DNA from: Roseibium aggregatum
GTDB taxonomy: Bacteria > Pseudomonadota > Alphaproteobacteria > Rhizobiales > Stappiaceae
Reading direction: 5' to 3'
DNA length: 64,000 nt
Assembly (NCBI RefSeq): GCF_014692675.1
Contig: NZ_JABFCZ010000017.1
Span: forward strand, 1-64,000
This document shows positions 13,816-17,900 of the stretch, in pieces (positions within the stretch are counted from its first letter, which is position 1; every line of letters begins with the position of its first letter). The notes beneath the pieces are model-generated. The model was given only the letters and a program-made list of their open reading frames with translations, made no database searches and was not told the DNA's origin. The position numbers and the translations under genes are program-made.

Positions 13816-14724
13816 ATGTCCATTCTCGTCGATAAAGACACGAAAATCATCGTTCAGGGCCTGACCGGCAAGACCGGTACGTTCCACACGGAACAGGCGC
13901 TGCAGTACTACGGCACCAAGATGGTCGCCGGCGTGCATCCGAAGAAGGGCGGCGAAACCTGGACCTCCGGTGTCGACGCCTCCGCCACCCTGCCGATCTT
14001 TGCTTCCGTCGGCGAAGCCAAGGAAGCGACCGGCGCGGACGCCTCCGTGATCTATGTTCCGCCGGCAGGCGCCGGTGCTGCGATCATCGAAGCAATCGAC
14101 GCGGAAGTCCCCTTCATCGTCTGCATCACCGAGGGCATCCCGGTTGCCGACATGGTCAAGGTCAAGGCGAAGCTGGAGAAATCCAGGTCGCGCCTGCTCG
14201 GCCCGAACTGCCCGGGCATCCTGACCCCTGAAGAATGCAAGATCGGCATCATGCCGGGCTCCATCTTCAAGAAGGGCTCCGTCGGTGTCGTCTCCCGTTC
14301 CGGCACGCTGACCTACGAGGCCGTGTTCCAGACCACCAACGCCGGCCTCGGCCAGACCACGGCAGTCGGTATCGGCGGCGACCCGGTCAAGGGCACCGAG
14401 TTCATCGACGTCCTGGAAATGTTCCTGGCCGACGACGAAACCCAGTCGATCATCATGATCGGTGAAATCGGCGGCTCCGCCGAAGAAGACGCCGCCCAGT
14501 TCCTGATCGACGAGGCCAGGAAGGGCCGCAAGAAGCCGATGGCCGGCTTCATCGCGGGCCGGACCGCTCCTCCGGGCCGAACCATGGGCCATGCAGGCGC
14601 CGTGATCTCCGGCGGCAAGGGTGGCGCGGAAGACAAGATCGCGGCCATGGAAGCCGCCGGCATCAAGGTCTCGCCGTCCCCGGCGAAGCTTGGTGAGACG
14701 CTTCTTGAAGTCCTGAAGGGCTGA
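13816..14724 (+). CDS. sucD: Succinyl-CoA synthetase alpha subunit
   Basis: 302 residues. The CoA-binding Rossmann domain reads [17 protein letters not shown]; the catalytic phospho-His is in [12 protein letters not shown], and [20 protein letters not shown] is the usual mid-region signature. It pairs with SucC as the alpha-beta unit that takes the phosphohistidine step. The ATG abuts the sucC stop codon and its ribosome site (AGGGGGG) lies inside sucC, so translational coupling is likely. Confidence 0.98.
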
Positions 14725-14758
14725 CCAATATTTATGCCCCACACGGAACGGAAATTGT

Positions 14759-14771
14759 TTACGTTTCGTAA
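14759..14771. repeat. TTACG-TTT-CGTAA dyad between sucD and sucA
   Basis: A 13-base perfect dyad. A related TTACGTAA lies in front of mdh (11560-11567). The two could mark one regulator's site, but both are short and could occur by chance. Confidence 0.25.
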
Positions 14772-14792
14772 GGCATAGTGACAGGATTGGAA

Positions 14793-14913
14793 CGAGGCGC
14801 GAAAGTGCCTCGATCCGCATTCGAGGGGACCGGCAATTGCGCCGGTCTGAAAAGGAAACCAGTTCGGGCCGTCTGGTCCGACCGTCAGTAAAAGGGCGGA
14901 GCATACCTCCGCT
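14793..14913 (+). ncRNA. Structured leader of sucA: four consecutive hairpins, the last masking the ribosome site
   Basis: Four stem-loops follow one another. H1 is 14793-14812, 8 bp closed by a GAAA tetraloop. H2 is 14828-14847, a perfect 7 bp. H3 is 14864-14881, 7 bp with a GTCT loop. H4 is 14895-14913, GGCGGAG paired with CTCCGCT around CATAC; its left arm is the only good ribosome site for sucA. Ribosome-site masking in front of sucA is also the plan of the known sucA and sucA-II RNA motifs of beta- and gammaproteobacteria, but I do not recognise either sequence here. A regulatory RNA is inferred. Confidence 0.5.
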
Positions 14914-14915
14914 GG

Positions 14916-17900
14916 ATGGACATGGCACGGCAGGAAGCGAACAAAGTCTTCGCACTGACGTCGTTGCTTTACGGCGCCAACGCAGCCTATATCGAAGATC
15001 TCTACGCGCAATATAAGGAAAATCCGAACTCGGTCGAACCCGAGTGGCAGGATTTCTTTGCCAGTTTCCAGGACGCCAAGGAAGATGTGCTCAAGGAAGC
15101 ACAGGGCGCTCCGTGGAAGCGCAAGGACTGGCCGATTGCGGCGAACGGCGATCTTGTCAACGCCTTTGACGGCAACTGGGCGCCGATTGAAAAAGAGCTC
15201 GGCGACAAGCTGAAGAAGAAGGCCGAAGCCAAGGGCGCGCCGGTCTCCGAGGCCGAAGTCCATCAGGCGACGCGCGATTCCGTCCGCGCGCTGATGATGA
15301 TCCGCGCCTACCGCATGCGCGGCCATCTGCATGCGAACCTCGACCCGCTCGGCCTTGCCGCGCTGAAGGATCACGAGGAGCTGCACCCGGCCTCCTACGG
15401 CTTTACCGAAGCCGACTGGGACCGCAGGATCTTCATCGATCATGTCCTGGGTCTGGAATACGCCACGATCCGCGAGATGCTCGACATCCTCAAGCGGACC
15501 TATTGTTCCACCCTCGGGGTGGAGTTCATGCATATCTCCGATCCGGCGGCGAAGTCCTGGCTCCAGGAGCGCATCGAGGGTCCGGACAAGCAGGTCGCCT
15601 TTACCAAGGAAGGCAAGAAGGCGATCCTGAACAAGCTGATCGAATCCGAGGGCTTCGAGAAGTTTCTGGACGTCAAGTACACCGGCACCAAGCGTTTCGG
15701 CCTCGATGGCGGCGAAGCCCTGATCCCGGCCCTGGAACAGATCATCAAGCGCGGCGGCCAGCTGGGCCTGAAGGAAATCGTTCTCGGCATGGCCCACCGC
15801 GGCCGTCTGAACGTTCTCTCCCAGGTGATGGGTAAGCCGCACCGCGCCATCTTCCACGAGTTCAAGGGCGGTTCCTACGCGCCGGACGAAGTGGAAGGCT
15901 CCGGTGACGTGAAGTATCACCTGGGCGCCTCCTCCGACCGGACCTTCGACGAAAACAACGTCCACCTGTCTCTGACGGCCAACCCTTCGCACCTGGAAAT
16001 CGTCAACCCGGTCGTGCTCGGCAAGTCCCGCGCCAAGCAGGACCAGCTTTCCGCGGTCGACGGCCATTGGGTCGAGACCACGGAAGTCGACCGCTCCAAG
16101 GTGCTGCCGCTGCTTCTGCACGGCGATGCGGCCTTTGCCGGCCAGGGCGTCGTGGCGGAATGTTTCGGCCTGTCGGCCCTGCGCGGCCACCGCACCGGCG
16201 GTTCGATCCACGTGATCATCAACAACCAGATCGGCTTCACCACGAACCCGCGTTTCTCGCGCTCGTCGCCCTATCCCTCCGATATGGCCAAGGTGATCGA
16301 GGCGCCGATCTTCCACGTCAACGGCGACGACCCGGAAGCGGTGACCTTCGCCGCCAAGATCGCCATCGAATTCCGTCAGATCTTCGGCCGTCCGGTCGTG
16401 ATCGACATGATCTGCTACCGCCGCTTCGGCCACAATGAGGGCGACGAGCCGGCATTCACCCAGCCGATCATGTACCGCAAGATCCGCAAGCATCCGACGA
16501 CGCTGCAGATCTATTCCGAGCGCCTGGTCAAGGAAGGCGTCGTCTCGGCGGAAGAAGTCGAGGAGATGAAGGCGAACTGGCGCAAGCATCTCGATGACGA
16601 GTTCGATTCCGGACAAGCCTTCAAGCCGAACAAGGCCGACTGGCTCGACGGCAAATGGTCGGGTCTGAAGCGCGCCGAAGGCGAGGACGACCCGCGGCGC
16701 GGCGCGACCGGCATTCCGATCGAGGAACTGAAGGACATCGGCCGCAAGCTGTCCCATGTCCCCGACGGCTTCAACATTCACCGGACCATCGCGCGCTTCA
16801 TGAAAAACCGCGAGCGCATGATCGAGACCGGCGAAGGGATCGATTGGGCAACCGCGGAAGCGCTTGCCTTCGGCGGTCTGCTGCGCGAAGGCCACGCGGT
16901 GCGCCTGTCCGGCCAGGACTGCGAACGCGGCACCTTCTCCCAGCGTCACTCCGTGCTCTACGACCAGGAGGACGAAGGCCGCTATATTCCGCTGAACAAC
17001 CTCGGCAAGGGGGCGGCCCGTTACGAGGTCATCAACTCGATGCTCTCCGAAGAAGCGGTGCTTGGCTTCGAATACGGCTATTCGCTGGCCGAACCGAACG
17101 CGCTGACCCTGTGGGAAGCCCAGTTCGGCGACTTCGCCAACGGCGCGCAGGTGGTCTTCGACCAGTTCCTGTCGTCGGGCGAGCGCAAGTGGCTGCGCAT
17201 GTCCGGCCTGGTCTGCCTGCTGCCGCACGGCTACGAAGGCCAGGGGCCGGAGCATTCCTCCGCCCGTCTGGAGCGTTACCTGCAGCTTTGCGCGGAAGAC
17301 AACATGCAGGTCGCCAACTGCACGACGCCTGCGAACTACTTCCACATCCTGCGCCGGCAGCTGAACCGCGACATCCGCAAGCCGCTGATCCTGATGACGC
17401 CCAAGTCGCTGCTCCGGCACAAGCGCTGCGTCTCCAAGATCAATGAACTGGCCGCGGACACCTCGTTCCACCGCCTGCTTTGGGACGATGCGGAAATGGG
17501 GACGTCCGAAACCAAGCTGGTGGCCGACGACGAGATCCGCCGCGTCGTCATGTGCTCCGGCAAGGTCTATTACGACCTCTTGGAAGAACGTGAGAAGCGC
17601 GGCATCGACGATGTCTATCTGCTGCGCGTCGAACAGCTCTATCCGTTCCCCAAGAAGGCTCTGGCGAAGGAACTCAACCGCTTCAAGAATGCGGACATGG
17701 TCTGGTGCCAGGAAGAGCCGAAGAACATGGGCAGCTGGTTCTTCGTCGAACCCTATATCGAATGGGTCCTCAACCAGATCGGCGCGAAGACCAGGCGGCC
17801 GCGCTATGCGGGCCGGCAGGCATCGGCGTCGACGGCGACCGGTCTCATGTCGTCCCACCTCGCCCAGTTGCAGGCATTCCTCGACGCGGCGTTTGAATAA
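14916..17900 (+). CDS. sucA: 2-oxoglutarate dehydrogenase E1 component
   Basis: 994 residues, full length. The N-terminal SucA segment (LYGANAAYIEDLYAQYKENP) binds E2; the thiamine diphosphate domain has MAHRGRLNVL, GDAAFAGQG and GSIHVIINNQIGFTT, followed by the transketolase-like pyrimidine domain (SGQDCERGTFSQRH) and the C-terminal domain (WCQEEPKNMGSW). It decarboxylates 2-oxoglutarate and passes the succinyl group to SucB lipoyl. Two start codons (14916 and 14922) are possible; the first is nearer the ribosome site, which is paired in a hairpin. Confidence 0.98.
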   Translation: MDMARQEANKVFALTSLLYGANAAYIEDLYAQYKENPNSVEPEWQDFFASFQDAKEDVLKEAQGAPWKRKDWPIAANGDLVNAFDGNWAPIEKELGDKLKKKAEAKGAPVSEAEVHQATRDSVRALMMIRAYRMRGHLHANLDPLGLAALKDHEELHPASYGFTEADWDRRIFIDHVLGLEYATIREMLDILKRTYCSTLGVEFMHISDPAAKSWLQERIEGPDKQVAFTKEGKKAILNKLIESEGFEKFLDVKYTGTKRFGLDGGEALIPALEQIIKRGGQLGLKEIVLGMAHRGRLNVLSQVMGKPHRAIFHEFKGGSYAPDEVEGSGDVKYHLGASSDRTFDENNVHLSLTANPSHLEIVNPVVLGKSRAKQDQLSAVDGHWVETTEVDRSKVLPLLLHGDAAFAGQGVVAECFGLSALRGHRTGGSIHVIINNQIGFTTNPRFSRSSPYPSDMAKVIEAPIFHVNGDDPEAVTFAAKIAIEFRQIFGRPVVIDMICYRRFGHNEGDEPAFTQPIMYRKIRKHPTTLQIYSERLVKEGVVSAEEVEEMKANWRKHLDDEFDSGQAFKPNKADWLDGKWSGLKRAEGEDDPRRGATGIPIEELKDIGRKLSHVPDGFNIHRTIARFMKNRERMIETGEGIDWATAEALAFGGLLREGHAVRLSGQDCERGTFSQRHSVLYDQEDEGRYIPLNNLGKGAARYEVINSMLSEEAVLGFEYGYSLAEPNALTLWEAQFGDFANGAQVVFDQFLSSGERKWLRMSGLVCLLPHGYEGQGPEHSSARLERYLQLCAEDNMQVANCTTPANYFHILRRQLNRDIRKPLILMTPKSLLRHKRCVSKINELAADTSFHRLLWDDAEMGTSETKLVADDEIRRVVMCSGKVYYDLLEEREKRGIDDVYLLRVEQLYPFPKKALAKELNRFKNADMVWCQEEPKNMGSWFFVEPYIEWVLNQIGAKTRRPRYAGRQASASTATGLMSSHLAQLQAFLDAAFE

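Follow-up and report, generated by a model that had tools for sequence, protein, structure and literature searches.

Start-site prediction and most models of ribosome-binding sites score the linear spacing between the Shine-Dalgarno (SD) word and the AUG, and structure near a ribosome-binding site usually lowers translation, which counts against the split site proposed below. According to an excerpt of PMC3014915, the SD word lies 27 and 22 nt from the AUG in genes 25 and 38 of phage T4, structure shortens these distances to 11 and 5 nt, and destabilising the structure leads to less initiation. Similarly, an excerpt of PMC3936740 describes, for E. coli thrS, a discontinuous binding site whose folded hairpin the ribosome accommodates. 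As for RNA motifs named after suc genes, an excerpt of PMC2864571 assigns sucA-II and sucC to Pseudomonadales and gammaproteobacteria.

The region analysed here precedes sucA, and we consider it probable that this core TCA gene has a split ribosome-binding site in the 3' part of the region, with a hairpin (P5) as folded spacer, and that four further hairpins (P1 to P4) form a leader at the family level. No description of this sucA leader or of the split site was found in the one open-licence library searched, which does not prove its absence in print.

The sucD-sucA junction and its hairpins

The gene row in the window, that is, the whole 64,000-nt stretch of DNA that was analysed, reads zapE, mdh, sucC, sucD, sucA, sucB, and about 190 nt of intergenic sequence separate the stop of sucD (14724) from the sucA start. 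The N-terminus of SucA was located in 86 of 87 genomes of the family, from which the sucD-sucA junctions were read; alignment A1 comprises 41 distinct junctions of the genus, and the helices P1 to P5 were taken from it using RNAalifold. The start of sucA is likely ATG 14922 and not the unconserved ATG 14916, since the latter is absent from many members of the genus and 14922 opens the conserved MARQEAN. The features are as follows.

13816..14724, + strand: sucD, succinate-CoA ligase alpha subunit, the gene 5' of the leader (NCBIfam PRK05678.1, 449 bits)
14732..14778, + strand: P1, the 5' hairpin (MFE fold; A1 helix 1, 87.3% of cells paired, two-sided changes at 6 of 9 pairs)
14748..14766, + strand: conserved near-palindrome inside P1, ACGKAAAYTGTTTACGTTT / ACGGAAATTGTTTACGTTT (conserved columns of A1; one exact genome copy)
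14784..14822, + strand: P2 hairpin, with a GAAA loop in the window (MFE fold; A1 helix 3, 94.0% paired, two-sided changes at 8 of 9 pairs)
14827..14848, + strand: P3 hairpin (MFE fold; A1 helix 4, 94.8% paired, two-sided changes at 4 of 7 pairs)
14865..14880, + strand: P4 hairpin (A1 helix 5, 91.5% paired, two-sided changes at 2 of 4 pairs; ends set by eye)
14892..14895, + strand: SD word AAGG, within AAAAGG at 14890-14895 (window sequence, SD spacing and word scan)
14895..14913, + strand: P5, 7-bp hairpin with loop CATAC, separating the SD from the start codon (near-invariant helix in the genus; two-sided changes in family and order)
14922..14924, + strand: likeliest sucA start codon, ATGGCACGGCAG, MARQ (genus junctions and conservation in A1)
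14922..17900, + strand: sucA, 2-oxoglutarate dehydrogenase E1 (NCBIfam PRK09404.1, 1416 bits)

The minimum free energy fold of 14725-14935 has -85.9 kcal/mol (z -4.4), and none of 200 dinucleotide shuffles was equally stable. The initial annotation had pointed to four hairpins in about 120 bases; these are present within 14784-14913 as P2, P3, P4 and P5, and the structured region exceeds that span, with P1 as a fifth hairpin at the 5' end. The stretch of P4 (14865-14880) is paired otherwise in the minimum free energy fold. Pairing holds in 92.9% of the cells of A1, compared with 35-52% after sliding the partners, and compensatory changes, suggested earlier as a check on relatives' junctions, were found at 20 of 37 pairs. 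Both sides are changed in 101 cells, compared with 25 in shuffles, and none of 500 shuffles reaches the observed values. It is P1 to P4 that covary in the genus; P5 is near-invariant there and shows no compensatory change, so that the genus data say little about it. The GNRA-type GAAA loop singled out in the initial annotation does occur in P2 of the window; by eye, however, only the window and the near relative L082 carry it in A1, and it was rejected as a conserved feature.

A consensus scan of 14600-15000 for sigma70-type promoters on both strands and for terminators on the + strand found neither. On the - strand, P5 reversed (14896-14912) resembles a short terminator, with CCTTTT as its tail. 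Two other candidates were set aside: a leader peptide, for which a short ATG frame was inspected by eye in the window and frames vary among relatives, and a repeated element, as the leader is present in a single copy in the genome.

No Rfam family reached its cut-off in the window or in 15 relatives. The consensus of the known sucA motifs had not been recognised in the initial annotation, and indeed the models RF01070, RF01758 and RF01759 gave no match at E<=10 in 14600-15050; elsewhere in the genome RF01070 and RF01758 gave only sub-threshold matches. The candidate for a new RNA before sucA therefore stands as a structured, covarying leader with no Rfam match; of the two results that the initial annotation had named as refuting it, neither was observed. 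At lax thresholds the sole match in 14600-15050 was to the Rfam LOOT family (RF03000), aligned end to end with 14735-14830 at 16.3 bits (E 1.1). Membership in LOOT is nevertheless extremely improbable: the score is 30 bits below the gathering score of 46.4, and five relatives gave no match at E<=10. LOOT was found in 0 of 190 genomes of the class, but control genomes gave no match either. Given the sub-threshold score and the lack of recurrence in the five relatives, the resemblance was taken as chance.

A hairpin between the Shine-Dalgarno word and the start codon

The window reads, in order, AAAAGG, the P5 hairpin GGCGGAG-CATAC-CTCCGCT, GGATGGAC and ATG 14922; a further ATG is found at 14916. 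AAGG overlaps the P5 stem by one base, which takes part in the G-U closing pair, and a rival SD word of equal length, GGAG (14898-14901), lies within the stem. The distance from AAGG to ATG 14922 is 26 nt in the linear sequence and 8 nt with P5 folded (23 and 5 nt by alignment to the full anti-SD), and GGAG lies 20 nt from ATG 14922 and 14 nt from ATG 14916, so that only a folded P5 yields an ordinary spacing to ATG 14922. Provided that AAGG rather than GGAG is the SD, the unfolded distance is thus too long, and the hairpin restores a functional spacing. In the proposed mechanism, the anti-SD of 16S rRNA would pair with AAGG at 14892-14895, and P5 would stay folded and loop out 18 nt, bringing ATG 14922 to 8 nt from the SD. 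Since P5 would be looped out, translation of sucA would need the hairpin folded, not melted, and use of this split site by the ribosome would raise initiation.

The initial annotation had the last hairpin mask the only good ribosome site. GGAG is indeed inside the P5 stem, but it is not the only such word, as the equally long AAGG lies 5' of P5. An alternative built on masking would be a switch or riboswitch in which P5 occludes GGAG in its 5' arm, and P1 to P4 respond to a TCA metabolite by opening or closing the site. The equal length of the two words speaks for it, and ties of this kind occur in 13 of 34 genus sites; against it, GGAG would be too far from ATG 14922 (20 nt) once P5 melts, and because of this distance from the conserved start, masking by P5 is unlikely in the genus of the window. 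With the evidence on the leader taken up below, we regard the switch as a whole as unlikely. The geometry of P5 is more in keeping with a spacer that separates SD and AUG than with masking.

The distribution of the layout was examined using a detector that requires an SD word of at least 4 nt located at most 12 nt before the stem and reaching up to 2 nt into it, a stem of at least 5 bp, and 4-16 nt from hairpin to start. SD word, hairpin and AUG were found in this arrangement at all 34 distinct sucA sites of the genus, at 15 of 35 other sites of the family and at 51 of 94 sites of the order, compared with 6-7% of shuffles; among named alphaproteobacterial sucA sites the count was 14 of 65. Control starts rarely carried SD word and hairpin (4 of 138 for sucD, 2 of 75 for sucB). 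When the SD was ignored, the hairpin alone was present at 28/28 genus, 33/33 other family, 69/91 order and 10/18 named Hyphomicrobiales sites. Outside the family, 71 of 94 distinct Hyphomicrobiales loci have a hairpin before sucA, against 18.9 expected from shuffles, in an order sample that is biased towards closer relatives. Counted by family, it occurs in 73 of 98 loci from 22 families, and in over half of the sampled members in 16 of the 22; the families mostly lacking it are f20 (2/10), f21 (2/5), f32 (0/1), f35 (0/2), f36 (1/5) and f42 (0/3). Where no split was detected, a linear SD lies in the last 22 nt in 30 of 43 sites.

The layout is clearer in Phyllobacterium, Shinella, Rhizobium, Ensifer, Mesorhizobium and Bartonella, where a GGAG- or AAGGAG-like word is followed by the hairpin, 8-9 nt and ATG. 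In Bradyrhizobium (loci L012 and L013), in three loci of family f36 (L245, L263, L272) and in most f20 loci, a linear CAGGA ribosome site replaces the hairpin, which indicates that the split site either disappeared from these loci or never arose in them. Among more distant alphaproteobacteria, L068 and L070 (by the detector) and L048 (by eye) have the look of SD, hairpin and AUG, in part with a further SD 3' of the hairpin; these may be independent cases or chance. A search of the genome using a P5 model gave the sucA leader as best match, at an E-value of only 0.23 and with the window among the training sequences, and seven further matches, all of lower score. Three of these (L289, L290, L293) have an ATG or GTG near the match end, with open reading frames of 3 to 353 codons; the four remaining ones have no ATG or GTG there, and split sites elsewhere in this genome were set aside.

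Aligned to the anti-SD, the median linear SD-AUG spacing is 23 nt in the genus, 23 in the rest of the family (15 sites) and 27 in the order (51 sites), and with the hairpin folded it becomes 5, 6 and 9 nt, values that are partly built in, like the low SD-stem overlap, since the detector bounds the hairpin-AUG distance at 4-16 nt and the overlap at 2 nt or less. Medians at control starts, measured within 24 nt of the start, are 8 nt for sucD (129 sites) and 6 nt for sucB (47 sites). Folded spacings of 6-11 nt were found at 35 of 51 order sites, compared with 33% of the shuffles that pass the detector (shuffle median 12), and at 0 of 34 genus sites, where the median is 5.

The position of the longest SD word was counted at each site, here without the detector's limit on SD-stem overlap. 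Of 70 order sites that bear a hairpin, 45 have the longest word in the 5' flank and 20 have it in the stem, ties being included in both counts; the stem alone holds it in just 8, which argues against masking, and 4 have no SD word. For the 34 genus sites it is tied between 5' flank and stem in 13, in the 5' flank alone in 6, in the stem alone in 2 and in the 3' flank alone in 11 (by eye AAGGA, 2 nt from the AUG), with other ties in 2. The 35 other sites of the family comprise 12 with no SD word, 8 with the 5' flank alone, 5 with a tie of 5' flank and stem, 5 with the 3' flank alone, 4 with the stem alone and 1 with a tie of both flanks; no 4-nt SD word lies immediately 5' of the hairpin in 20 of them. 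SD words 3' of the hairpin are present at 14/34 genus, 9/35 other family and 17/71 order sites; these, the tie of AAGG with GGAG in the window and the 20 sites with no word 5' of the hairpin speak against the split site. On the whole, the counts in the order speak for it, and those in the genus are ambiguous by themselves.

Covariation of P5 was assessed in a family alignment (A2) and in an order-wide alignment made by MAFFT in which structure was not used (A4). In A2, pairing holds in 94.8% of cells and two-sided change is seen in 24, above every one of 500 shuffles, and in A4, 72.7% of cells pair, with 66 two-sided cells against 36.2 in shuffles (0/500) and a covariation score of 0.347 against 0.220 (0/500 as high). 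Compensatory change in P5 is therefore seen in order and family on some measures, and in the genus not at all: the count of two-sided pairs and the pair types were not clearly above shuffles in A2 (186 and 244 of 500) or in A4 (245 and 56 of 500). Swapping the 3' arms among 40 distinct stems lowered pairing from 100%, which holds by construction, to 55%. Neither loop nor stem sequence of P5 is kept across families; the geometry is kept across the order. A layout common to much of Hyphomicrobiales with varying stem sequence would act by geometry.

The hairpins have median free energies of -9.4 to -10.5 kcal/mol and median stem probabilities of 0.84-0.96, and the median probability that the SD is unpaired is 0.63-0.64 in the local ensemble. 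It follows from the split geometry that conditions melting P5 would stop sucA translation, so that the spacer could serve as an inverse thermosensor or a magnesium sensor. Such a conditional spacer agrees with the structure data; nonetheless, it is quite improbable, as hairpins of this free energy are probably too stable for physiological melting.

Reach and possible roles of the upstream leader

A model of P1 to P5 and the first codons (R1) matches most leaders of the family end to end, with a score that derives partly from P5 and the coding sequence. A second model (R2), built from P1 to P4 only in three genera, with rough E-values and a computed structure that left P1 unpaired, found 4 of 34 held-out family loci in the right place at E<=0.05, and matched no sucA leader among 80 loci outside the family. 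Its sole match at E<=1 in these 80 loci lies antisense within sucA, and P1 to P4 were rejected as an order-wide motif. By these searches the signal of the upstream hairpins is strong in three genera, weak in a few more and unseen in the order, and P1 to P4 thus appear to be a leader restricted to the family level. Within the genus, A1 also shows conserved unpaired stretches in the leader.

Two other genera of the family, g3 and g7 (loci L131-L144, L148, L149 and L151), carry a different near-invariant leader hairpin, GGGGCGCTGCGTGAAAGGGC(A/T)CCCC, together with a repeated GCGGGACACGC or a close variant of it, to which the genus of the window has no close counterpart. From its sequence, this hairpin with its repeat appears to be a second conserved leader type before sucA.

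A covarying leader directly 5' of the gene of a 2-oxoglutarate enzyme is what a metabolite-sensing switch would lead one to expect. Against a riboswitch speak a P5 whose loop and stem sequence are unconserved across the order, and P1 to P4 that were not found in 80 loci outside the family. P1 to P4 may or may not sense a ligand.

The near-palindrome at 14748-14766 is perfect, ACGTAAACTGTTTACGT, in some relatives. Its next-best sites in the genome differ by 3 mismatches, and because the exact sequence occurs once, it does not mark an obvious DNA operator regulon, a candidate that was rejected on this ground; judged by its sequence, it could be an RNA motif or a single-site DNA operator. The conserved sequence, present once in the genome in a covarying P1 stem-loop, would suit a leader under autogenous or other protein control, where a protein on P1 or on P3-P4 tunes translation or decay of the sucA mRNA. 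Such control is compatible with the split site, which could serve as its expression platform. We hold it to be a tentative possibility, as no binding protein is known, the leader is restricted to the family and the near-palindrome may instead be an operator.

Under the split-site reading that we prefer, P1 to P4 (about 150 nt) would insulate or regulate the sucA cistron of the mdh-sucCDAB cluster through processing, stability or protein binding. A bolder version, which seems rather unlikely, joins the two parts: the order-wide split site must fold for translation and, in the family, the leader would fold or unfold the spacer, thereby controlling the 2-oxoglutarate branch point.

Comparison with known systems

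If the split reading is true, the T4-type split ribosome-binding site would be a stable bacterial solution too, present in a core TCA gene across much of an order. It would offer many natural variants for measuring how the ribosome accommodates a hairpin between SD and AUG, and a testable entry to how rhizobia and related bacteria control 2-oxoglutarate dehydrogenase, the carbon/nitrogen branch point.

Among structured RNAs 5' of suc genes, the sucA RNA (RF01070), sucA-II (RF01758) and sucC (RF01759) are alike in position, but differ in that the region gives their models no match at E<=10, and the likeness to LOOT RNA (RF03000), which aligns two hairpins end to end, is at chance level. In thrS an upstream single-stranded element precedes the hairpin and the part with SD and AUG follows it, so that this hairpin, unlike that of sucA, is not between SD and AUG. 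Genes 25 and 38 of phage T4, as far as the excerpt describes them, share with sucA an SD too far from the AUG and a structure that shortens the gap, from 26 to 8 nt in the window. Unlike these phage genes, sucA is a bacterial chromosomal gene of core metabolism, with the layout spread order-wide on varied stems, a long leader in the family, and a case known from sequence.
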